Of a stretch of 64,000 nt of DNA, positions 47,850 to 64,000 are shown one piece after another. The notes below the pieces were generated by a model. It had not been told where the DNA came from. It saw only the letters and a list, made by a program, of their open reading frames with translations, and ran no database searches. The stretch's first letter is position 1; the number at the start of each line of letters is the position of its first letter. The stretch is taken from the NCBI GenBank assembly GCA_963855995.1, contig OY979729.1, positions 10,062,115-10,126,114 of the forward strand, written 5' to 3'. The DNA comes from Muricea muricata (Eukaryota; Cnidaria; Anthozoa; Malacalcyonacea; Plexauridae). The position numbers and the translations under genes are program-made.

Positions 47850-48040
47850 AGGAACCAAACAAAAGTGCTATTCGAGTCGGAACCCTTGAAGAATGTGTCC
47901 CCACGCACATCGCATTTTCATTATGCAGATTCAATTGCTTGTTTTGGCCAATGAAAACGCTGAACTGGCTGTTTTGCCATTACTCTGGCCAGTCAATTGC
48001 ATAAAAATAAGGACACGTGTTCCACTGCTGCCCCCCCTTC
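47850..48040. mobile_element. Related MITE between the two genes
   Basis: Shares CGAGTCGGAACCCTTGAAG, TTGGCCAATGAAAACGCTGA and CCAGTCAATTGCATAAAAAT with the 24043 family. The ends are unclear. Confidence 0.55.
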
Positions 48041-48874
48041 ATACATAGCTTAGTCAGTGCCTCCTCCCCCCCCCCTCCCCCCACTCAGCCATATCGGTAT
48101 GGAAGAAGGGGATCCCTTCAGCGCCATTGCTAAGAAGAGGTAGATAAAATTAAGGAGAAGTTGGACCGCTGTACGGTCTCTACTGTGTAGTTGACGGTTC
48201 AGAACTTGCCTCGGTCTATCGCAGAGGAGAGGGGGGGGGGAGGATGAAAGTATTATCTCAGTTTGTCATGTTGCACCAGGTCTGAAAATCAGATTTGGTG
48301 CAACTTGATATTTGTACATTTTCTGCATTATATAGTACTAGGTTCTTCAAACAACTTGTATTTATCAATCTTGTGGATAAATTAAAAGTCTTGCCCCAAG
48401 GCTGTTGACAACTTGCAGCAGACGTGATATTATTTGTCTGCGATGTTTCTAAAGTCGCATACCAGCCGTGGAGTGAGACATACTACTCTTATCAGACAAA
48501 TCAAGTCTACCATTACTATGCAAACATGTATGTCATGAAAAATTCATTTGATATTGTGGACGCGTCATAATCTTGCATAATAAGATCTCTTTTCGTCTAG
48601 TCATTTCCGCCGACGTTTATTTGTTATGCACATTAACACACTATTTGGCAGTTTGCTTTCGAGTTACGAAATACACCTTAAAAGCACTTGAACTTGCGGT
48701 TAAAAAACACTGACAATTGAAACGAGCCGTGGCGGTAGAGTCGCTCTGGGTCATTTTTCATTCGTGGATAATCCAGAGTTGTGTTTTGGAAGCCACCGCT
48801 ACCACATCAAACGTTGTGTCAGAATGTATCGATTGTAAACTCACTGATCAAGGAAGAACTCCATTCTCGTCAAC

Positions 48875-51800
48875 ATGGGTGATTATCCTATTAAAGGAAT
48901 TAAAGTCATTGGTGTCGAGAAACCACAGAAAGGCAAATTTCAAGAACACTATGTACGTTACGTTAATATATCTTTGTGCCAGCTCTACGATATAGTGTCA
49001 TCGTATGTTGCGATCATATTTCAAAGACTCGAGAGTTCCGCTGTCTATTATTACCCTGAAATGGCAGATAAGAATGCCTTTATTCCTCAGTATTGCCCGT
49101 TGTCTCAATGGCGTCTATATTATCTTTGTTCTTACACCCCAATATAAATAATCGTTGTTCTATATAGCTATATCTAGACATTGCTATAGCCATATTATAT
49201 GGCTCCCTGTATAATCTAGGAACATAAAATGACCTGTAAAATATTCTGTACTATGTAACATCCATCTATCTGTGTTACCTGTCGCTATAAGCCTTTGTTA
49301 TATTCCTATACTACCTTCTTAAGTACATTGTATATAACTTTTAGGAGTATGTGATAAGAGTGACATATGAAAACGGACGTGAACATCTTATATTTCGAAG
49401 ATACAGTATGTTATTTCACTTCCATGTAAGTTTATGCTATACGGATAAAGAGTTTAATAGTTAATTTTTATCTGTCGTAGTTCCAGCATGCAATGTTTAG
49501 ACCCTGTTGTTGAAAACGTCGAAGCGAAAGTCTTACCCCCCAGAAGACTCCCTCGACTAAAACGCAAAACAAGCAGAAGATCTTGTGTCAATCGCAATGT
49601 CTAACACAGTAGGAACTAATACCATAAGACTTTCAAACCGCTAATTCGACATGGTTTCTGCCAAACATTGCGACATTTCGTGTCAAAACTAATCTTGTGT
49701 TTATCTGAATTTGTACAATCGGTTATTGAGATTAATTAAAAATGTAAAACACGGCACGTTTAGATCATGCTTCAGTGAATATTACTGATAACAGTCACGA
49801 ATAATGTTGTTGTGGGCATCATCTCTTTTCATGTTTTTTTTTTGTTCACTTTGATTAACATATTTCCCTATAATGTCACATGAGCTTAATTTACAATTAT
49901 CTAAGTAAACTTCTTATAAAAATACCAGGAAGAGCTCAGAGATTAAGCAAGCAAAATAACAACCCAAAGCCCATATTCCGTTCTGGGTTTCAAAAAAACT
50001 CTTGATGCTTGTCGACAGGCGGACAGGGCCGGTGTTCGAACCAGGTTTAGCTCGAACGCTAGCGAAGTTTGAAATATCAAACAACTCTGCAGTGAATTTA
50101 TTGAATAACAAAATTAAAGTATTTCAACCTGACAAGAACACTAATGTAGATATTTACGTATTTATTGTTAAAATCGGTCTGTTACAAATTCAATGGGATT
50201 ACGTCCTTATTTTGACTTATCGACTGGGCTTCGAAGAACTAAAAATAAAACTGGCGCTTGGGAATATGGTTTTGTTGTGCGTGGGGTGTCTGTTTGTAGT
50301 CCTAACGTGGCTAAAACCGTGAGATAGTCGTGAACTATAAACGATCCGATTGTTTTTGGCTTTGTTTTTTCGCCTTTCTTGGACATCAGTGATTTAAGAA
50401 TACTCTTTTAGGTATAATACGTTATGACAAGGCAGGTTACTGGTAATTAAATTAAATTAAACGTTCTTAAGGTAGTATAATGAATTCTTTCTTGTTTAGT
50501 CTGTGCTGAAAGAGGTGGTCAAAGGGAATTACAGTAGTGTGATTATACTTCCTGAATTGCCTGGTAAGGGAAATATCTAAGTTCCACATCGAGTTTTTAT
50601 TTGTACCGAGCTTACTCAAACACGTGTGCGGATGTGTGTGTGTGAAATACAAATCGCGATTTGTCCCAAAAATGCATTTCCAATTGTATCGCGCGTCACG
50701 TTATAAATGTTTCGCATTTCTGTGTGGCCGATTAGCGCGTTGCAAAATGTTGCATCGAGTAGGAAATGAAATAATCCCCAAGTTGATGAAAGATGGCGCA
50801 ATTAAACGCGATTGATGTGCTCCAGCTCTTGGGGCTCTGTAGACTCCGTAGCAGAACAGCTAGTTGGCGTTCTCTCATTGTCTTCGTCGCTTCTGCCATG
50901 ATGCCATCGGCCTGTTTTGCTACAACAGATAGAATGATAGTCTGCAGATATTTGATCTTTGGTTGAGGACAAACCGCATAAAAATATATGGACATGTAAA
51001 CGACTCGAGTCTTGATGTGACCTTTGTCAACTTTCACTTCCGGATCGAAACTAGAAATGAATTTAAATAGCAATGTTTACAATATACAGGTCTCTGAAAT
51101 TATTGACATACCAGGGTTTTTGTTGCGTAATAATGATATCTAACGCTTTAGGATTGAAATTAGATCTTCCAATATTAAGCTCTAACGTCAGTGTCGGTAT
51201 AGTGCAGTCAAAAGCAACTATATAGTTTCATTGCAAAACGATATAAAACAAAGTTCTACGACTACGTTTCGAACGAGTGCCCTAGCTTCGTTTGGAAATT
51301 TGCAGGATGAACAACAATAATGTATATGTAGCAAATGTATAAACAATTTATTTATCACAAATAAAAGGCAGCATATTAAGAGCAAATTTAAATTTATTTA
51401 TGTTGGTTACTGGCGGGGTGGCTAATACATCGATGCAAAAAGCCTGGATATTTTTCCACAATTGGCACAAGACTAATCTAAGCCTAAGGATAAACAGAAG
51501 ATTAGGTTTCTAATGTTTTGCAAATAAGCGAATTGGGAAACTTAACTGAAACGGCGGTGAAAATTTTAAGCCACAGTTGGCGCTAAACCAACAGTAATCA
51601 TAAACAAATGGCCCCTCTGGTGCTCTAGATGATAAAACTTTCAAGTTTTAGCAATTTCTATTAAGGCGTTGAATGCTCGCTGTAAACTGTTCTTGTATAG
51701 TGGATTAATTTAATTTAGACGCCTTGAAATAAACTTCTTTGAACAAGAATTTTTCATGTAGCCATGAAACAAGAAATGGAAATACTTGGAAAACTATTCA

Positions 51801-54800
51801 AAGAAACTGCTTTGAACAAAAGTATCTTTGTGTTAGATTATATAAGTCTGCGAAATGCACGAACTTTGTCGCCTCAGTCCTTCCAGCAACAAGGAAATTA
51901 TATTTTCAAAATTGCATACCGAGTATACACGGAAACGTCTTCTGGTAAAATGTCAAAATTTTCGACGTGTTTTCCAATTTGATTGTGACATCACCTAAGT
52001 AGGTCATGCTTGGGTTACTTCTTGTCCCAACCCCAAGGAGGCAACTGATCAATTTTAACAACCAAGCATTCAAAACAAACATTGCCCATGCATTTATATA
52101 ATTGTATTGTCTTCGCCCGAATTTATGTGGTACAATGTTACTTGCACCGTAGCATGGTCACGAAATTGAGTTCGGGCAGTTTGCGGTCGTGTTTACTCAT
52201 ACCACTTTTTCTATGACTAGCTGTTATGAAATGCTGTAATATTATCATAAATATACTCGTCTTTAAACTATCAAATTTTATATCGTCATCATGCGGATCC
52301 GGTATCGTGTAAACGAGGCCACCATATAGATTTATAATTTCATAATTACCGGCCTGCAGTATGGAACGAGATATTTTTTTTCTCTAGCTGATTCGAATTT
52401 TCCTCTTCTGGTTTCAAAGCATCTCTTTTACACCCCCGGCCTATTATCAAATTCATTACAAGAAATATTTTCATGACGTCTCGATGCTTGTCTTACACAG
52501 ACTTGTTTCAAGTGGGCTATTTTACCTGCTTGTTGCAAATTGTCAAAAGTTGTAGTAAACTTGTCAACTCATCAAGTTGCAACAAATGTGTCAAAAACAG
52601 GCTTGTTACAGCTTGTTTGCCATTTGCAGACTTCAACAAACGCGTTGGAACTTGCTAGTTTTTGGTTGTATAAATGGCGAGTTGGAGTATTTCAATTTTA
52701 TTTTGTGATATAAAGAACTTGTTTCATTTTGTTCGGAATGTTTTCGCTCTGAAGACGCTGTCTCTAATATCAATTATAAAACTGCATTACAAACTAATTC
52801 TGGTCTGGTTGAAATAGAGCCAATACAGTATATTACTGAGTACATTTTTCGAGGTTGCCAAGTTTAGTCACTTGATCTTCAATAGAGAATCAATTGAATA
52901 ATGGAAATGCCTCGAAATATGTATAGGTAATGTTTCGTTACCTTCCTGCAAACAAATTTATAAAATCTAGGCGTATAATAGTTTGGTCATAAATTCTCCA
53001 TTTCTGCCGGAAAACCAGAATAGCATCAGGATAGAAATCATGTTGTATTTTTCGCTTCACAGATCCTGAAGACTCTTTCTAATCTTCCAAACTGAGCTGT
53101 GGAAGTCATTGGGAAAGATTTCTTGATCACGTTTTATCGATATTTGCATTGAATTGCTATCGCCCCCAACCTACACCCACCTTCGGCTTCCTCAAATTCT
53201 AGACGTTCTTGCCGCATCGTGAGAGAAAAAAGACATACATACCAAAATTTCTTACCTCCCGCCATGCTGATTTTAAGAAAATTTTTGCATACTAAAATCC
53301 GGCATGCCTCTCGCAGCTAGAATTGTCAGTTTTAAATTTTGAAGATTTTTCTTCAGGAACTGCGTGGAGCGAAAAATACAACATCAATTTCAAATAGTCC
53401 TTTTTGGTACCAACTTTCGTATTTTGTGCCGTATTAAAAATTATGGACACCTTATCTTTTATTGTTATAGTTGCAAGATTTCAGCATGTCGGACGCAAGT
53501 TTCTTCGCCTCGGTATGAACAAGGAGCTGAAACAAATGACTGAATTTTGTCAGGTTAGTGCGCATGTCTACCGCGTTCCGCATGGCTGAGATGCTGCTTG
53601 CTACCAGTGGCTTCAACAAGTTGTAATAAGTCTGCAAATGGCAAGTTACAACAAACCTGACTTTAACAGGCTTGTCGCAAGTTGATGAAATTGGCAAGTT
53701 TGTTGCAAGCCGCCAAGATGACAACTTGCAGCAAATCTCCGCACTCACTGTGAACTCACTGTTTCTTTGTTTTAGAAAATCATCGTTCTTCCAAAATTCA
53801 TTGCTGAAAAAGACATAATTATGAAATTCTTTGATCAACTTGGAACGGATGTCGCTCACTCTGAGGCCTACCTCGAGTAAGTCTTCTAATTGATGCTGGT
53901 TTTCACTTTAGCTGATCTGACCGTGAGTAAAGGGCCTGGCACTAGCTACCAAATAGAAATCCATTTTGCTGTTGTAAAGCACTTATGTCTTTTATTTTCC
54001 TTCATGAAACTTGTTGAAACTTGGTGACTGTCTTTAATGGAGAAAATTATAAGACTGCAAGAAACTTAGAAACAAAGTAAATTATATTTCTTGAGGAATT
54101 TGATAATTTGGATCGAGGAATGGGTTTCTATTTGACAACTAGTGCCAGTACTTTTCCGTGTTTTCAGATCAACTGGCTGAATGTGGATATGCAGAATATG
54201 GTAATCGCTCTGTTGATTGGAAAAAATATTCTTCGAGGTCCCAGGCGGGAAGTTTGAGCTTTTTTTAGCTTCATGAAAATCACTTCTTCCCCTTCCCCCC
54301 TCGTACACCCACCCTCTCCTTTCACATACGAGAGTGTCTAAGTTTAGAAACTTGTGGTCAATGGACCATTCCCCTGTTAGACGAACTTTTGAATTCGGAA
54401 AATCAATTAGCACAGCTGGAAAGAGCATCCTAAATTTCATCAAGTTTGGTTGCAAAATATTGTAAAATGTGGAAAATATGGCCCCGTAAAGTTTGCGAAT
54501 TTTGTATACATTTGTATTACGCGCGGAAAAGCGTTGCCACTATGTGGAAATATGGTAACGCTTTTTCCCGCGTGATACAAAAGTATACAAAATTCACAAA
54601 CTTTACATTACTATATTTTCGACATTTTACAATATTTTACAACCAAACTTCACAATTTCACTAAATTTAGGAAGCTCTTTCTAATTGTGCTAAAATTGTT
54701 TTCAAATTTAAAAGTTTGTCTAATTGGGGAATGGTCCATTGCTGAGCCACATTCTTTTATTTTGAAGATGCACTGAGCCTGTTGGCTTCATAAAGTTGCA

Positions 54801-57800
54801 TCAAGTCTGTGAAAATCAAATTTGATGCGATTTGATATTTGAAGACTTGCTGCAAGTTGTTGAAGCAACTGCTGACAACTTGCAGCAGATTTGTTATCAT
54901 CAAGCCTGGACAAGCGATGTGAACGCATTCACGATAACAAGCCTGTAACAGACTTGCTTGACTGCAATTTATAGATCTCAAAAAGGCGAACAAACAAAGG
55001 ACCAAAATGACAGAGTATCGCGTAAGTTTTTCTGAAATAAATAATGAACCATAAGCTTTTCAATCAAATATTTCTGCCCGAGAGAAAACAAATGCCAATT
55101 GTATCCTGCTTTCAAATATAAGATATTTACATGCCGTTATAGTATAGCCCTGCAGAAAATTAGATCGAATAAACTTGCATGACTTGTTAATGTTAGATAT
55201 TCTTCTAATTCTACTCTTCTATTCTTTTCTGAAGAGCATAATTTTAAACTTTACCTACTAGGGGGTGTATAAATGCGCACGAAATTTCAATGCTTAAAAG
55301 TAATTTTCTCTACCAAGGTAAATTCCATGTATACCAAGTCAAAATTACAATTAAGCATTTACGTCTTGTGCGCAAAGCATTTTTAACTTATCGTTAGTTG
55401 AAGTTTTTAGTTTCTATCTTTTTCTGTTTATTCTACATTATAAGTACCAAATTAAAACAATCTATTTAAATAAAAAACTTCGTGCATCGAGGCGCTTCCC
55501 AAAATGGAGAGCGATTTCAGATTTGTCAAGCTGTTTTTACGTGAAAGAGCCTGTGTTTTTGTAAAGAAAAAAAAGAGCCAAAAAAAAAATTGCGCACAAA
55601 CCCCATACATGTGCGGCTGCTATAAGTGGGGCCACTTGGGAAACACTAACCAATTAAAAAGAAACCCTCAACGAATTAACTATGATTGGGCCTGTACTTA
55701 GCCTTTACACAGCATGTTTCCATATCTAAACGTCGCTATCAACACTAGCCGTGAGCTGTATACCTTGAATGTTGTCTTAGTGGCCCCACTTATAGCAGGC
55801 AAAACTGTAAATTTCTCTGAGCGTTTCTGCTTATCGTTTATCATTTTGTTCAATTGCAGCTCAAGCAGGTCCAGAGAATGGCGGAGAGATGGGACAAGAT
55901 AACATAGATCAGTACAGGTCTATCGCGGAATTTGGAGCCGCGGGAATGGGAGAACTCTCTGTAATCGAAGGAGAAGTGGTCACTGTAATCGAGAAGAACA
56001 CTTCCGGTAAGATTATATACACAGCTGGGAACATACGGGCTTGATTCTGAAAGTGGCGTAAAAAGGAAGCCAAGGCCTTTTGGGCGCATTTTGCGGTCTG
56101 TTATGCGAAAGGTCAATAGCGCTTACCACCGGACAGTGATATTTTTCAAACCTTCTAAAAATGTCAGAAATCCGTCCTTATCAGATCATGCCGAATATGG
56201 AACACACTTTCTGATTATTTAAATCTTAACATGGATATTAGTCTGTATTCTTTCAAAACAATATTACAGAACTACTATTTTGCGACAACGGACATTAATT
56301 ATAATCCGGAATGCCCTCTAACATTTAAAATTATTATTCAGTGATTAAAACTGTGTGTTTAAAATGTAATCTTGCACGGAGTTTAACATCCATGTTAACC
56401 TGCTGTAATTGAATGCATGGTAATTGGTCAGTGTATGTATCATGTAACTTGTCCTTATGTGGGTCCGCCGTAACTGGCTAAACGCTGTTGTGGAATCCCT
56501 GCCATATATATTGTCTTGTATTGTATTGTCCTGTGTCTTGTATTGTATTGTATTGTATTGTAATGTATTGTGTGTTGGTATGTATTATGTAGTTATAACT
56601 TACTGGCGAAGCTTATAAATAAATGAATAAATAAATAAGTAAAATAGGGAAATAATGTTCACCACTTTTGAGTTAAAGTCACTTTTCATCTCATGCGAGT
56701 TCAATATCTCTGGTGTCATTCGTTTTATGCCTTTCTGCAGTAGTTAAAAAACCCGCTATCCGTTGGATAGCTCTGTACCCTTAAGTGCAACCGTTCCTGT
56801 AGCTCTGTCAGGTTACCAGCCCATAATGAACAAAGCGTCAAAAAATTAGCTTTTAAATGCAGGATTGTTATTTTCCAGGTTGGTGGCTCGTCTCCAACCA
56901 GTCTGGACAGACAGGTTTTACTCCAGCAACATTTTTAGAACCAGTGGAAGAAAAGACTAACAAAGGGGAATGGCAGGTTGTCACCGGGCCTGACAGTAAG
57001 TAGAACTTTGTGCCAATGACATATTACAATTTGATTCTCATCATATCTATTAAAAATTGAAATCCAATTCCAATCTCGTGCGAGTGAAAAACGGTTATTC
57101 AATATCTTCTTGATACAGTTGCAACTTCTAATAACTGTATTTTCTAATCCTAATCCAATCTCTTCCCATACAAATCGTGCAGTGTTCTAACCCAGCCCTA
57201 ATCTTTTCGTATATTATTCGTATATGCTCTAATCCCAAACCAATCATTTCTCAGATATGTACAGAGCTATAAAAGACTACAATGCAGTCTGTGACGATGA
57301 AATTAGCTTCAAACATGGAGACGTGATGGAAGTCTTGGCTATGAGCAATTTCGGATGGTGGCAAGTTAGGTATAGAAATTACATCTTTGTAAAACGCTGT
57401 CTGCGTAGATCGTACTCGCAAATTCCCAGTTTTGCTCTCACTAAGCGCAGCTTGATAAGGTTTTTCTCAGTAAAACCCTAGACAAAGGACTGGAAACGGT
57501 AGGCTAAAATGCTAATGACATCCGCGATATGGCTTGTTACGCTTTACAGTTTAGAACCCTGTAACTTCAATTTAAGCATAAGTATTTAAGTATAGTATTA
57601 TTGCTTTAGACAACAATGGCAATGTGTATATACTACTGTCAAATTTTTAACCTTTTCGAGCTAGTGAGTAAACATAGACAAAAAATCACTATTGAATGTT
57701 CTGGTTAAACTTTTTTAAACAACATACCGACATAGCAGCAACATTCAGGACGGTTTTTCTTTTAGATGCGACGAGAGGGTTGGTCTATGTCCCGCATCAA

Positions 57801-60800
57801 GTCTCACGATTATCGAATCGTCACCGCTTTATGAAGTACGAGGATTATTACGTTATCTTTTTCAAAACATCGATTTACAGAACGACTAAGCGCACGTTGC
57901 GACGAGTCTGTTGGCATATAGAATCTTGTTTCTGCTTGTTAACATTTTAAACGTGTTATTTTAGGATCCAATGATTGAATATCGAAAGTCAATTTTGAAA
58001 TATTCCAAAAAATTGAATTCACAAAGAGATGCACCACCAAGAACGTAAGATAAATATTTCCAAGAAAACATTTTAGAAGCATACAAGTGTAACGTCTTTT
58101 TTATTCCATTTCCAGTTTTTTCTAGCATTGAGAAAAAGTACTTATTAAATTAAATATCCTCTATGATGTAAATTTTTGTTAAGAAGCTAAGTCACTGTTA
58201 ACGAATTACAATTACAATTTCAATAATGCTGACGATTTTCCTAACCTTTGTGTACAAAAAAGAGCAAAGTGGAATAAAATAATTGTTACTTGCATGACGA
58301 TATGTAAAACTGTCAGTGAGTCCATGGTAGTGAGGTCTAACAGGTGAACGCCACTTTATTTCTTCGGCATCAAGTAGGCCGACTACTTTCAGTTGCTCAC
58401 TCTTCCTGAGATCAACTCGTGATCAACTCGAATGTAGTACTTACCCTCTGAACACTTCGGACTGCATAACTTGTCACTGAATTCAAGAAATTCATACGTC
58501 GGTCGATGATCCACGAAATTGATGAACTGTTTGCCAAAAATATAATGTCGGCAGAGGTTAAAATCACTATTAACATCCGGCTATTTATCTCAGTAAATGT
58601 AGTCCTTTTTGGTTTTAAAACGTAGTACACTAGCTTTGATTTATTTCACAAGTTGGTCACCACCTCTAGCAGGATATTGCTTAGTAAAACATCATTTTGA
58701 TGTTAAATGACTCTTGTAATCCTCTCTATTTTAATAGTGGTTCATCAAGAAGCTGTGATAGTTTCGATAGCTTTTCTAGTGATGGTAAGACTAACTGAGA
58801 CTTGATTAATTAAGTTTTTTATTTCCTTTTAGTATAATCACCTAGGTAAAAATGAAAATTCTCCACTCTGATTGGTTTTCCTAGGGGTGATTATGACACA
58901 ATAATCACCTGAGTGTTTTTTTTTTCAAAATGGCCGCCAATCGTTTTGTCAATGTGACAGATGCTGTTTTGTGATATGAAACGTCATTTTCTCCTTTGTG
59001 ATTATACTAAATCAATTATTTGCCTCAGTCAGGCTCAGTGGTTATCGGTGAATACTCCATAATCGCTTCACCTTCGGCGAATAATTGTTAAATAACGCAT
59101 TTGTAACCCCATTGGATCCTATTTTAGGCAGTTTTCATGGCAGCACACGACAACCAGAAAGATTCACTCCTCCAGACAGGTAAAGTTGTTAGAAACATGC
59201 GAACGTTCTAATATTATTTGACAAGTACCCACACTGCAGTAACTGATTGTTTATTTTTCGCTTAACGTAGTAGTGTGAAGTACACCAAAATTATTCCAAA
59301 ACATTTGAGGTGAGATTCAAAGAGAAATGCGTTCTTTGTGTGTACCTAGTTTCACTCCTGTACAATTTAGTCATGATCTATATTCACGTGCTCTATTGAA
59401 GTTATATTTTCGCTGTTCTCCATGTCATCCAATCATGATCTAGTGATCACAGTGCTTCATTGTCTTTTCATTCGTTTGAAAATCTCGCTGTTCTTCGTGT
59501 CATTCAATCATGATCCAGAGATCAGAGTGCTTCATTGTCTTTTCATTGGTTTGAAAATCTCGCTGTTCTTCGTGTCATCCTGTCATGATCCAGAGATCAG
59601 AATGTTCCATTGTCTTTTCATTGGTTTGAAAATCTCGCTGTTCTTCGTGTCATCCAATCATGATCCAGAGATGAGAATGTTCCATTGTCTTTTCATTGGT
59701 TTGAAAATCTCACTGTTCTTCATGTCATCCAATCATGATCCAGAGATCAGAATGTTCCATTGTCTTACCATCAAATCATGATCCAGTGATAAAATGTCCC
59801 ATTGTCTTCTTATTGTTATGAGTTCACTCATCCAGTTTCTTTCATTTTTTGGCAAAATCTATCGAAAATTATATTATCCCATCATTCCAATATATGTGAA
59901 ACGGAAAATAATTAATTGTCATATTTGTATTTTTGCAGACCTGAGGAGCCCAACAATAACGATCAAGAAACCGAAAAGGTACTCTTTGAAAAATATAAAT
60001 TCTTGTGCTTTTGTGGTTGTTTTGAAAATATATTTTGACGTAGAGATCTTCTTTATCTTCGAATTCCAAACATTTCATGCGAAAGAGTTCGAATTTAAAC
60101 GGATTAATACTGTATTTTGTTGTATATTTACATTTGAAATCAGAATATGTTTTGTAATTGTACAGATAAGTTATGTGAATATTCCTGTAATAAAGGATGG
60201 TACACCACACTATCACGACGGCGAAGAGTCAGAGGTAATAGGCGTCCTTTTGAATTCCCAAAACGTCACCGCTGTTGTTATGAAATATTGTAATGTCGCA
60301 TAAAGTCGAGTTACTCGAGTCAGGTCAATGTCTTCACTAGAGTCAAGTCAATGTCTCCACTTGAATCAAGTAAATGTCTTCACTAGAATCAAGTTAATGT
60401 CTTCACTTGAGTCAAGTCAATGTCTTCACTAGAGTCAAGTCAATGTTTTCACTATAGTCAAGTCAATGTCTTCACTTGAGTCAAGTAAATGTCTTCACTA
60501 GAATCAAGTCAATGTCTTCACTAGAGTCAGGTCAATGTCTTCACTAGAGTCAAGTCATTGTCTTCACTAAAGTTTAGTCAAGTGGAGTCAATTAAATGAG
60601 CTTACTAGAGTCGAGTCGATTTCCTAAATTGATTCGTGTAAAGGTATTAATTTATATACCCCTGCCGTAACGTTTTTCAAATTTCATTTTATTTCAGGCA
60701 ATTAACGTTCACGTGATGAGAAAAGATTACGAGAAAAATGGTTTCTCTCTTCGAGAAGGCGAGGCGGTTCAGGTGATCAAAATTATGCCAGACGGTTGTT

Positions 60801-63663
60801 TCTGGAAAGTTGCGGCAATAAACCCACCTTTCCAAGAAGGATTCATCCCTTCTGATCTGCTGTGTCCAGAACTACCACATCAATTAGAGGACACTACGAG
60901 ATCTGGCAGGTCAAGTAAGGTTCAAGAGTGTTCGTTGAGGGATAACGTGGAACCGTTGAAGGTCTTGCCTAGGTTTACCGCGCCGCCATCAATGAGAAAA
61001 CCCGTTCCAGCTCCCAGAAGCAATCCACCTAAGTCGCCTACGGGTAAGTGCTTTGGTTAAACGATAAACAAGCCCAGGAACACAAATTCACAATATAGAC
61101 AACGGACACTCGAGTGAATTTTGTGTGTCTATGCGTGTTGCATTACGCATCTCATTTCGATTATGTCAGCCACTCAATTGCATTTTCTGGTCCATGAGAA
61201 CGCTGAACTGATTAGTTGCAACCAGTAAACTGCATAAAAGTAGGTCGCATGTTGCACTGCTGGGAAGCCCTACTGTCTATTTTACTATACTGTGTCCGGA
61301 ATTGCAATGGAGGATTTATGCTAAGTATGGTTTACGCTGTTAACAGTCAAAGGTTCTGTACTTATTGAAGATATTGCATGGGGAGCTTCTTAATTCAATA
61401 ACTTGTGAGAAATTCTCCAGAAAAATGATCGATTGAGTTTCCTGGGAGAAATTTCTTACAAATCGTAGATATAGAATTTACCCAATGCAAAATTCTTTCT
61501 CTGATAACTGTCTAATCCAACCTTGTTGTACAATCGATTGTGTAAACAAACGCTTCGTTTATAACTTTATTGTTTATAATTATCTAACACTATTTTGGTT
61601 TTGTATGTTTATAAATGAACGTAAAGCAGATTTTTAATTCAAAAAAAGTTTGAAAGATGCGAAATTTGGGCAATGTTATATCTCAAATTCCCCCTTCGTT
61701 ACAAATATTCTACATGCGTCACAAAATATGTAAATTTATAAATTAAATTTCAGTTACACCGAAAGGAGCACATTCAGTAATAGCCTTGGTCGATTACAAT
61801 CCTGGACAGACTGATTTGCTTTCGTTTCAAAAAGGCGATATTGGACGAGTGATAAAGAAGCCGGATACTGGATGGTGGTTTATTGAACTGAAGGGATTTG
61901 AAGGCTGGGTACCCTTGGTTTATTGGGAAGAGTGTAAGGTAATCACGAACCACGATCGTGGCTAATGTTTCGTTAGTAACACTAAGTGGTTAGTGTTACG
62001 ATAGTGTTGCTAGATAATATACTTCAAAGTTTTACGACACTTTGAAGTTTTAATCAGCCGCTTCCTAATCTAGACCGCAAAGCATGCACGGATTGGCACG
62101 GAGGGACACAGCGATAGACCACCAGTAGTGCTACGAACTTTTGAGGCTTTTCCTTGATAATGACAGAGTTATCTTCCTGACACTTTGTGTTGCTCTTCCA
62201 AACAATCCACAGATGCTTTGCGGTGCTGTTGGGATGAGGAAGAGCAGAGACTGATTTCGTATCACAAGTTCTAAACATCCATTCTTAGTAGGCCTCACCT
62301 TAGTAGGCCTCCTTTTTAATGCTCTCATCCGAGTACATCCTGCGATAATTATGGCCTATTTACTCAGAGGGGTGAACCGAGCGAGGGATTTCCCGACCAT
62401 ATCGACTGTTTTGTTGATGAGTTTTCTTCCTCGAGATATAAATTTTATTTCACAAAGGAGGTAACGCTCACAAAGGGATGTCAGTGTCGGTTACTCTCCC
62501 GCTCTGTACATCCTAGATCATTGCCCTTAGCTAGTATTATCCATTTTGGTCAAAAATTATACCTTTGGTAAAATTTCATCACTTTTGTTTTTCAAATAGG
62601 ACAGCCGTAGTAACGGAAGGACACCGGATGTAACGGTGCTAGGTGAGGGAAAATATCAATGTCTTATCAATGTCTTTTTAATTTTTGAGGTATTTTTAAT
62701 TGTATACAATCTGCTATTTCGAACCGTGTTCTGTAATACTGTCTGCTTCAACTCATGTAGGCTTGACCAGGCAGTGGTTTTGTGGGAAAATGTCGCGGGA
62801 GCAATGCGAGGTTCTGTTTGGAAAGGTAATTATAGTGCTCGATTAGCCAGGGAATGGAGGAGTTGTTCGTTTTCCGGATCTGTGACCCTAACCTCTGCTA
62901 AATCTTCGAGCCAAGTAGGAGATATTGTTTGACATGTTTGTAGGAATATATTTTATATCAATGTTTTTCATTTTGTCCACCTCAGGAAACATTCTTGCGG
63001 AAACATTATGTTTCCTATCAATGTTTCCCTGTTTGTTCACCTCTGCAAACATTGTTGCAGAAAGATTATGTTTCCTATCAATGTTTTCCCGTTTGCTCAC
63101 CTCTGCAAACATTGTTCCAGAAACATTTTGTTTCCTATCAATGTTTCCCTGTTTGTTCACCTCTGCAAACTTTGTTCCAGAAACATTATGTTTGCTATCG
63201 ATGTTTCCCTGTTTGTTCACCTTTGCAAACATTGTTCCAGAAACATTATGTTTGCTATCGATGTCTCCCTGTTTCTTCACCTTTGCAAACATTGTTCCAG
63301 AAACATTATGTTTCCTATCTATGTTTTCCCGTTTGTTCACCTCTGCAAACATTGTTACAGAAACATTATGTTTGCTATTAATATTTTCCCGTTTGTTCAC
63401 CTGTGCAAACATTGCTGTGAAAACATCGATGTTTCTCAGTTTGTCCAGTTCGCGAAACAAAATTTGCTTCTCAAGAATCAATAATGTTTCTCTACAAATT
63501 TAAAAACCGTTTGATAGCAGCTGGCAGAAAAGTGTCGCATCGTGGACAGTGGGGCGGACGTTTTATTTCCAAATTCCTCGCCCGGAGACAAACTAATTCT
63601 TTTTAGACATAGGACTGATATCGAGGGTTCTTTGAAAATAATAACTATAGAAGACAAATTCAT
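48875..63663 (+). CDS. PX - 4x SH3 - SH2-like adaptor (p47phox/Tks-related), 3' end outside window
   Basis: Exons: 48875-48952, 49345-49425, 50500-50563, 53471-53553, 53776-53876, 54975-55021, 55860-56006, 56879-56995, 57255-57369, 57766-57835, 57965-58044, 58738-58784, 59128-59179, 59939-59978, 60166-60234, 60698-61043, 61754-61938, 62600-62642, 62761-62825, 63521-63663. All 20 join in phase (657 codons so far). PX domain about 5-130: RRYS at 44-47 (phosphoinositide pocket) and a PELP PxxP loop at 71-74. SH3-1 about 170-222, SH3-2 about 241-296 (each with GWW), SH3-3 about 398-456, a proline-rich linker about 485-511, SH3-4 about 520-574, then an SH2 start at about 590. Family knowledge: PX-SH3 organisers recruit NADPH oxidase or build podosomes on PI3P/PI(3,4)P2 membranes. 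PX plus four SH3 resembles Tks4; a terminal SH2 does not. Start ATG 48875 opens directly into the PX fold. Whether this is an oxidase organiser or a podosome scaffold cannot be decided. Confidence 0.9.
50732..51073 (-). other. Unassigned 113-codon open frame on the minus strand
   Basis: Open frame in an unusually CpG-rich patch of the PX gene intron, including MAEATKTMRERQLAVLL and LRSLQSPKSW. It could be a nested gene exon or chance. No splice-consistent partner was found and no domain recognised. Confidence 0.2.
51762..51944 (+). CDS. Possible in-frame cassette exon inside the PX-encoding region
   Basis: This 183-nt open segment is flanked by AG (51760-51761) and GTAAAA (51945). It enters and leaves in phase 1, exactly like the junction between the PX exons at 50563 and 53471. 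It could therefore be included without shifting frame, adding 61 residues after the PELP loop. It also holds its own Kozak-like ATG (51764). Residues include a hydrophobic, aromatic-rich stretch (NYIFKIAYRVYTE) that I do not recognise. It could equally be an exon of a nested gene or a gene fragment in the intron. Skipping it gives a normal PX domain. Confidence 0.35.
54360..54741. mobile_element. Hairpin MITE family, copy 3 (complete, 382 bp)
   Basis: The outermost ends CAATGGACCATTCCCC and GGGGAATGGTCCATTG are exact complements. The interior matches 38490-38800 and 41066-41425, including CACAGCTGGAAAGAGC and the ACAAAATTC/GAATTTTGT core. Confidence 0.85.
55265..55385. mobile_element. Short foldback element in PX-SH3 gene intron
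   Basis: AATGCGCACGAAATT..CAATGCTTAAAAGTAATTTT pairs with AAAATTACAATTAAGCATT..CTTGTGCGCAAAGCATT. Confidence 0.65.
55614..55800. mobile_element. 187-bp MITE with about 21-bp TIR
   Basis: GCTGCTATAAGTGGGGCCAC at the left and GTGGCCCCACTTATAGCAGG at the right; unrelated interior. It ends 60 bp before an SH3-encoding exon. Confidence 0.75.
56455..56645 (+). mobile_element. SINE 3' end with TATTG and AATA simple repeats
   Basis: CTGTTGTGGAATCCCTGCC is followed by an expanded TATTG-type repeat and GGCGAAGCTTATAAATAAAT with AAAT repeats, in an intron of the PX-SH3 gene. Confidence 0.55.
59405..59790. repeat. 75-bp tandem repeat, about five units, in PX-SH3 gene intron
   Basis: TCGCTGTTCTTCGTGTCAT recurs at 59485, 59560, 59635 and 59710. 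The period is a multiple of 3, so a reading frame stays open through the array; it is not an exon. Confidence 0.9.
60305..60590. repeat. 24-bp tandem repeat, about twelve units, in PX-SH3 gene intron
   Basis: Unit AGTCAAGTCAATGTCTTCAC plus TAGA, with some units reading TTGA or GAAT. Confidence 0.92.
61105..61275. mobile_element. Related MITE in PX-SH3 gene intron
   Basis: Shares GCATTACGCATCTCATT, CTCAATTGCATTTTCTGG and CCAGTAAACTGCATAAA with the 24043 family. Confidence 0.55.
62761..63663 (+). CDS. SH2-like domain exons of the PX-SH3 adaptor, FLVR arginine absent
   Basis: Two exons (62761-62825 and 63521-63663) join in phase 0 across a 695-bp intron. The first encodes QWFCGKMSREQCEVL, a textbook SH2 beta-A/alpha-A signature (W-F-x-G-K-x-S-R-E). 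The second aligns to the beta-B to beta-D region through NSSPGDKLIL and LKIITIEDKF. At the FLVR position it reads DVLF, so the phosphotyrosine-binding arginine is a phenylalanine. The exon ends in phase 2 at an AT/GTAAAT donor. If that donor is not used, a TAA stop follows directly (63664-63666) and the SH2 would be truncated. The rest of the domain should lie beyond base 64000. Confidence 0.7.
62961..63440. repeat. 60-bp tandem repeat, eight units, in the SH2 intron
   Basis: The unit runs AAACATTATGTTTCCTATCA, ATGTTTCCCTGTTTGTTCAC, CTCTGCAAACATTGTTCCAG with exact 60-bp spacing from 63001. Frames stay open on both strands because 60 is divisible by 3. A single related unit lies in a TAOK intron (about 35245-35350). 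Confidence 0.95.
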
Positions 63664-64000
63664 GTAAATTTCTTCTTATAAATTTTTAAATAGGTTTGTA
63701 AACATATTTGCGTGTAGCCGGTCCAGATTGAATACAGGGCGGAGCATATAAATATGCCTTATGGTCCTTATTTTCCTTGATCACTGTCTATAATTATGAC
63801 GTACGATGTTTTCCATTTTTTTTTTGGTTTACTCATAAAAATAGTGAAAATATTGGGGGGGGGGAGCTCAACTTTTGGCGAAATTTAATTGACTTTAGTG
63901 GCTCTGGGGATGAGGATCGAAGGTCGATGTCATTGTGCTCGAAAAACGCCATCTTTTCAACACAACTATCAAATAGGCAGGGACGAGGCTGGTTTAATAG

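Follow-up and report, generated by a model that had tools for sequence, protein, structure and literature searches.

A predicted PX-SH3-SH2 gene of the octocoral Muricea muricata and its possible role as an organizer of NOX2

A stretch of 64,000 nucleotides in the genome of the octocoral Muricea muricata (contig C14, 10062115-10126114, hereafter the window; the genome comprises 453 Mb in 74 contigs) raises the question of what protein would combine a PX domain, several SH3 domains and the beginning of an SH2 domain, whether these parts indeed belong to one gene, and what such a protein might do. A reading made earlier from the sequence alone (the sequence-only reading) had proposed 20 exons for it and had regarded its architecture as undescribed. 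The literature that we searched agrees with the latter view, since no paper on a PX-SH3-SH2 protein was found, as judged from titles, the beginnings of abstracts and some passages. The arrangement may stand unremarked in public annotations.

Exons were joined by splice signals and phase, and past the end of the window this was continued in the stretch L009, a 30-kb piece that shares its first 1 kb with the window and was read from base 500 through its first 10 kb; L009 positions plus 63000 give the window numbering. Within the window, positions 48000-64000 were read. The predicted gene lies on the plus strand at 48875-65468 and consists of 22 exons and 21 GT-AG introns of 118 to 2907 nt, with phases that match across all 21, and a single stop, encoding 692 amino acids (Table 1). 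Its 3' end lies 1.5 kb beyond the window, such that exons 1-19 are inside and exons 20-22 outside. From position 48875 onward, the GT-AG exons with matching phases that had been claimed were retained, and they include the phase-matched plus-strand exons that encode the first 22 residues of the SH2 region inside the window. The claimed 20th exon was replaced, and the three further exons found beyond position 64000, where the sequence-only reading had advised looking, complete the SH2 domain. For exons 6 and 12-15 the basis was phase and splice signals, the only homology being that of exon 12, where the AIR-like motif ends.

Table 1 Exons of the predicted PX-SH3-SH2 gene and the rejected exon, in window numbering
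Feature	Position	Strand	Basis or remark
Exon 1, PX start (MGDYPIKGIKVIGVEK...)	48875..48952	+	aligns with human p47phox from the MGD start; PX region 1gd5 E 3.1e-8
Exon 2, PX (FRRYSMLFHFH)	49345..49425	+	gene model, PDB match of PX
Exon 3, PX (LPELP, PxxP-type stretch)	50500..50563	+	gene model, PDB match of PX
Exon 4, PX	53471..53553	+	gene model, PDB match of PX
Exon 5, PX end	53776..53876	+	PDB match of PX; Pfam PX 35-122
Exon 6, linker	54975..55021	+	splice signals and phase only
Exon 7, SH3-1 first part	55860..56006	+	Pfam, PDB match
Exon 8, SH3-1 second part (GWWLV...)	56879..56995	+	Pfam, PDB match
Exon 9, SH3-2 first part	57255..57369	+	Pfam, PDB match
Exon 10, remainder of SH3-2; Tyr300 (PLYEDPM) where exons 10 and 11 meet	57766..57835	+	Pfam, gene model
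Exon 11, AIR-like motif QRDAPPRTGSSR, running into exon 12	57965..58044	+	1 of 1000 linker shuffles fits the human AIR region as well
Exon 12, last piece of AIR-like motif and linker rich in serine	58738..58784	+	splice signals and phase
Exon 13, linker	59128..59179	+	splice signals and phase only
Exon 14, linker	59939..59978	+	splice signals and phase only
Exon 15, linker	60166..60234	+	splice signals and phase only
Exon 16, SH3-3 (divergent) with the proline-rich PVPAPR (aa 499)	60698..61043	+	SH3-3 alone: SH3_2 E 0.066; whole exon: no Pfam match
Exon 17, SH3-4	61754..61938	+	Pfam E 3.3e-13; best PDB match p47phox 1.9e-14
Exon 18, linker to SH2	62600..62642	+	in-frame stop directly 5', no ATG
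Exon 19, SH2 start (GLTRQWFCGKMSREQCEVLFGK)	62761..62825	+	SH2 E 3.1e-18, exons 19-22 joined
Exon 20, SH2 (FLIRES)	64621-64665 (L009:1621-1665)	+	outside window
Exon 21, SH2	64893-64930 (L009:1893-1930)	+	outside window
Exon 22, SH2 end and stop	65303-65468 (L009:2303-2468)	+	outside window
Exon 20 of the sequence-only reading, not an SH2 exon; open by chance, or else an alternative exon of poison type	63521..63663	+	no SH2 match; codon score

Several repeats were noticed in and near the gene. Its introns hold minisatellites at 59410-59766 (75-base unit), 60313-60581 (23) and 62956-63414 (60). The last array, whose unit is divisible by three, falls where both strands have long open frames. A palindromic, MITE-like repeat of about 380 bases occurs at 54360-54740 and again at L009:7321-7663, with 79-81% identity between the copies and between its own strands, and a shorter related piece lies at about L009:8430-8533. 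Elsewhere in the assembly, the mitochondrial contig (C74) carries cox1, the small-subunit rRNA (Rfam RF00177, E 1.4e-131) and, by eye, nad1 on one strand, and cox2, atp8 and atp6, again by eye, on the other, in what we take to be the common octocoral order. Another cox1 match of almost full length, with a single TAA inside it, is located on a large contig (C1:38414782-38416095) and is probably a nuclear mitochondrial copy.

When the joined translation was searched against Pfam, as the sequence-only reading had suggested, all three domain types were indeed recovered, namely PX (E 4.4e-6), SH3_1 in three stretches (E 2.8e-38) and SH2 (E 7.2e-17), these values being somewhat flattered because the choice of exons was guided by domain similarity. 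The PX part alone scored E 2.2e-7, and SH3-1, SH3-2 and SH3-4, taken singly and each with its best family, scored 8.4e-13, 2.0e-14 and 3.3e-13, respectively. SH3-3 alone remained under the Pfam cut-off (13.3 bits against 21.8), and exon 16 as a whole found no match there; by eye, the SH3 pattern is retained (FSLREGEAVQVI...FWKV...GFIPSDLL). The tally of four SH3 domains claimed earlier is thus better given as three clear ones and one divergent. The SH2 domain by itself covered profile positions 1-77 of 77 and is therefore complete; taken apart, exons 20 and 21 together scored E 1.4e-4 and exon 22 0.02, and exon 19 alone yielded no SH2 match in Pfam. The FLVR-type arginine is present (FLIR, residues 617-620). 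Presumably, the arginines alphaA2 and betaB5 and the histidine betaD4 are kept and the lysine betaD6 is replaced by proline; on that assumption, three of the four classical phosphotyrosine contacts are retained. With the last exons corrected, the order PX-SH3-SH3-SH3 (divergent)-SH3-SH2 holds for the complete predicted gene.

To which family does such a protein belong? According to passages of PMC8348221, the p47phox-related organizer superfamily is defined by a PX at the N-terminus with at least one SH3 domain behind it, and this is the order found here. Within it, the predicted protein shares with p47phox (NCF1) the MGD start, a PX with RR and PxxP-type stretches, the tandem SH3, an AIR-like PPR motif shortly past SH3-2 and a proline-rich stretch farther on, whereas the NCF1 type has exactly two SH3s and nothing further, and the coral gene has two extra SH3s and a C-terminal SH2. 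With Tks4 and Tks5 (SH3PXD2B and SH3PXD2A) it has in common the PX, the tandem SH3 and further SH3s, but the Tks type, with its four or five SH3s, ends in SH3, as does the five-SH3 Tks of this genome, and the coral protein ends in SH2. The Nematostella 'p47phox' of Kawahara and Lambeth (2007, PMC2121648) is described in passages of that paper as having a PX, a tandem SH3, a polybasic AIR-like region and 'multiple SH3 domains'; unlike here, SH2 is mentioned 0 times in its main text. Judged by these features, the gene is best classed with the p47phox-related organizer superfamily, as a variant in it.

The comparisons that might place it more closely pointed in different directions. Among solved structures, the best match of the PX part was p47phox, although this comparison is lopsided, since 4 of the 8 PDB sequences matched at E up to 10 were p47phox and Tks was absent from them. 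The tandem SH3 likewise found p47phox best (7yxw, 1e-20), in a match spanning both SH3s, and at E up to 1e-10 six of seven matches were p47phox, the seventh being SH3PXD2A; for SH3-4, p47phox again led the best 60 of 65 matches. Pairwise scores were nearly equal, at 319 with p47phox, 315 with Tks5, 305 with Tks4 and 293 with the partial Tks of this genome, the human p47phox sequence used here and in the tree being verified against PDB. Over the PX and tandem SH3, 90 of 271 residues (about 33%) are identical to human p47phox. In a six-row tree, four rows of which were human, the branch of the gene is very long and joins Tks loosely (82/84, not starred), six rows being too thin for deciding between p47phox and Tks orthology. 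As to the linker, an AIR-like motif (QRDAPPRTGSSR; human counterpart KRGAPPRRSSIR) starts at residue 321, about 30 residues past SH3-2, and its PPR core lies behind the tandem SH3 as RDAPPR at residues 322-327; the human AIR region was matched equally well by 1 of 1000 shuffles of the linker.

A Tks gene proper was found on the minus strand of contig C5, with PX pieces (E 5.3e-13) and a tandem SH3 (two SH3 stretches), followed by a single long open frame that holds three further SH3s (three stretches, E 6.7e-32) and has its stop behind the last of them; this model is partial, its first exon and the end of SH3-2 not being located. It is identical to human Tks5 at 128 of 227 positions, compared with 91 of 283 for the PX-SH3-SH2 gene, which, going by these predicted proteins, is a different and more divergent member of the family. 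The idea that the PX-SH3-SH2 gene is itself the Tks of this genome was rejected in view of the C5 gene. Nor is there support for the proposal that a Tks-like gene gained the SH2 as exons at its 3' end, if that gene is taken to be the Tks of this genome, which is separate and has its stop directly after the last SH3. No second copy of the PX-SH3-SH2 gene was seen in a genome search with the whole protein, the 66 matches being its own locus and distant SH2 or SH3 exons; as this search overlooked the PX exons of Tks too, there may be divergent paralogues. Exon-wise family searches miss split domains: those for PX (21 matches) and SH2 (59 matches) omit the PX-SH3-SH2 gene, and that for PX omits the C5 Tks as well. 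A tandem-SH3 query found no relatives in IMG/VR (1 of 8 scans).

By sequence similarity, the partners of a NOX2 organizer are present in the same genome: NOX2-like genes, a p22phox with a PPR tail and a candidate p67phox. Two NOX2-like genes lie about 12.5 kb apart in opposite orientation (C6:13241335-13245946, minus strand, and C6:13258492-13263310, plus strand), their exons reaching 76% identity to human NOX2; of the 39 rows found at E up to 0.01, the others, on C2 and elsewhere on C6, were taken for further NOX-type genes. The p22phox gene, on C7, has the tail EAPSQPPPRSHQVSRSTDNLYENA-stop and carries EAPSQPPPRSH. Its end, STDNLYENA, places a tyrosine in a possible SH2-binding context near the PPPR docking motif. 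The p67phox candidate (C8:9935300-9939800; MTLVENLQTWKEAV...) has N-terminal and TPR pieces and an SH3, and LEKRDYLGKSQV, with the activation segment KRDYLGKSQV, stands where the human protein has QLAKKDYLGKATV. Its matches were weak genome-wide (E 0.025 and 0.16) and clear when the search was local to the 4.5 kb (E 7e-7 to 2e-9); in Pfam, the SH3 piece scored E 3.3e-11 and the first piece was weakly TPR. A survey of 2007 reported no obvious p67phox in Nematostella (PMC2121648).

On this evidence, we assign a probability of roughly 0.55 to the reading that the gene product would be the NOX2 organizer of this animal, or share that role with Tks, the SH2 adding phosphotyrosine docking. The predicted gene, its domains and the partner genes are read from the sequence, and from them we infer every interaction and function. 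The PX, the tandem SH3 and SH3-4 with their best matches in p47phox, the AIR-like motif, the presence of the partner genes and the SH2 with its FLIRES arginine and three of the four classical contacts speak for this reading; the tree without a p47phox grouping, the nearly equal p47phox and Tks5 scores, the presence of more than two SH3s, which is a Tks trait, the replaced betaD6 lysine and the weak genome-wide matches of the p67phox candidate speak against it. Tks4 carries a PPR motif too, according to passages of PMC8348221, and the C5 Tks could instead be the organizer. We regard as rather unlikely, but still deserving of weight, that the protein is a second, divergent Tks paralogue that acts as an actin or podosome scaffold and not as a NOX organizer, its SH2 binding phosphorylated Src-family substrates or receptors and its SH3s recruiting actin regulators. 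The four SH3s, the score nearly equal to that of Tks5 and the leaning of the tree would fit such a scaffold, as would passages of PMC7663256, in which human Tks4 and Tks5 act beside Src, and the SH2 and SH3 of Src bind phosphorylated Tks4. The same proposal has to contend with the clear Tks orthologue on C5, closer to human Tks5 as given above, and with the p47phox structures as best matches of PX (in the lopsided comparison), tandem SH3 and SH3-4. The spacing of the AIR-like motif is also closer to p47phox; as passages of PMC8348221 have it, the AIR core is PPR, and the motif of Tks4 lies about 50 residues farther from SH3-2 than that of p47phox.

It seems quite improbable to us that an organizer ending in SH3-4 is followed by a separate short SH2 protein, the two being joined only in the model. 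It is true that the joined structure is a prediction in which SH2 similarity guided the choice of exons 18-22, and that intron 19 is longer (1795 nt) and houses the 60-base minisatellite. Against this, exon 18 has a stop in frame immediately 5' of it and no ATG, and the frame of exon 19 has an upstream stop at 62697 and no ATG thereafter, which speaks against an SH2 gene of its own beginning at these exons. Introns 17 and 18 measure only 661 and 118 nt, phases agree across the 21 introns, exon 17 is free of internal stops, and an AATAAA lies 117 bases 3' of the SH2 stop codon. The claim that one gene joins PX, SH3s and SH2 is, therefore, most likely correct.

The stretch that the sequence-only reading had taken for its last SH2 exon fared differently. 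LAEKCRIVDSG...EDKFM is open from 63521 to a stop at 63665-63667, and found no SH2 match in Pfam, whether by itself or joined to exon 19. If ended at its GTAAAT donor it measures 143 nt, which would put the true SH2 exons out of frame, whereas exon 19 joined straight to exon 20 reads EVLFGK-HGKHLDFLIRES and aligns with the NCK of this genome with one single-residue gap. An SH2 without the FLVR arginine, having VLFP instead by way of this exon, was likewise considered, and is ruled out by the FLIRES found downstream. Seven of 14 coding blocks reach or pass the codon score of the stretch (0.057), as do 6.5% of 1491 overlapping open intronic windows, and the stretch may accordingly be a chance frame or an alternative exon. 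That it is a real alternative exon, the inclusion of which would truncate the SH2 by the in-frame stop or by a frame shift into exon 20 and so yield an organizer without a working SH2, is a minor prospect in our estimate: its 48 open codons behind an AG and its codon usage in the range of real exons are offset by 135 further frames, each open for 49 codons or more, behind the 674 intronic AGs (three frames each), by the intronic windows that equal its score, by an acceptor poor in pyrimidine tract and by the missing SH2 match.

For the source of the SH2, eight SH2 sequences were compared pairwise. The NCK of this genome, located on C3 with three SH3 stretches and an SH2, scored highest (161; 32 of 98 identical), followed by human NCK1 (143), GRB2 (136), RASA1-C (121), SYK-C (120), SRC (107), RASA1-N (106) and one Src-family SH2 of the coral itself (97). 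In plain identity SYK-C, the second SH2 of SYK, stands above NCK (39 of 73), so kinship with NCK is a lean and not a result. A phmmer search of PDB ranked chains of RASA1, SYK, SHP2 and PLC-gamma first, with two SH2s summed, and among single-SH2 chains GRB2 and NCK1 scored highest (51.2 and 50.4 bits), in both cases among the best 60 of 156 matches. The intron between exons 20 and 21 agrees in residue and phase (0) with an intron of the coral NCK; two of 59 SH2 rows end at profile positions 32-34, one of them being NCK itself. NCK1 and NCK2 resemble the predicted protein in having SH3s and then a C-terminal SH2, and the coral NCK shares the intron position, but the NCK type, three SH3s and an SH2, lacks the PX that is present here, and SH3-4 matches p47phox best. 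Two other origins found no support: donation of the SH2 by a close paralogue, as non-self SH2 rows were only 28-41% identical (41% over a part), and an NCK fusion that brought an NCK SH3 along, as SH3-4 is p47phox-like. A cluster of SH2 and SH3 exons was also seen at C15:9582715-9708260, which suggests tandemly repeated Src-family kinase genes.

Returning to the reading of the protein as a NOX2 organizer, its working may be pictured by steps. At rest, the AIR-like segment would be held by the tandem SH3. Upon activation, the tandem SH3 would open and the PX would bind phosphoinositides; the opened tandem SH3 would then take the PPPR tail of p22phox, and p67phox or other partners might be brought in by the proline-rich stretch or the further SH3s. 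As a second key, the SH2 would dock on a receptor, a scaffold or a member of the complex that is phosphorylated on tyrosine, and would thereby place superoxide production at sites of tyrosine kinase activity. Thus, with its terminal SH2, NOX assembly may answer directly to tyrosine kinases. A stricter version, in which the phosphotyrosine read by the SH2 belongs to the NOX complex or to the organizer and tyrosine kinases gate the organizer directly, is offered tentatively, as a possibility that we would not yet favor. Candidate phosphotyrosine sites for the SH2, as suggested by sequence context, are the p22phox end STDNLYENA-stop and, in the organizer, Tyr300 (PLYEDPM), which shortly precedes the AIR-like segment.

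A transcript named 'SH3 and PX domains 2A' appears in passages of a coral settlement study (PMC3204972), and a 2026 paper on Porites states, in a passage, that to its authors' knowledge the regulation of NOX is uninvestigated in coral (PMC13069887). If gating by tyrosine kinases were true, the assembly of superoxide production would need release of the tandem SH3 and tyrosine phosphorylation together, a double logic that does not appear in the parts of the vertebrate accounts examined, where the organizer has no SH2. With NOX2-like genes, p22phox, a p67phox candidate and an SH2-bearing organizer in one genome, a link between tyrosine kinases and superoxide becomes testable. An organizer with an SH2 would bring a possible direct input from tyrosine kinases into the control of coral NOX.
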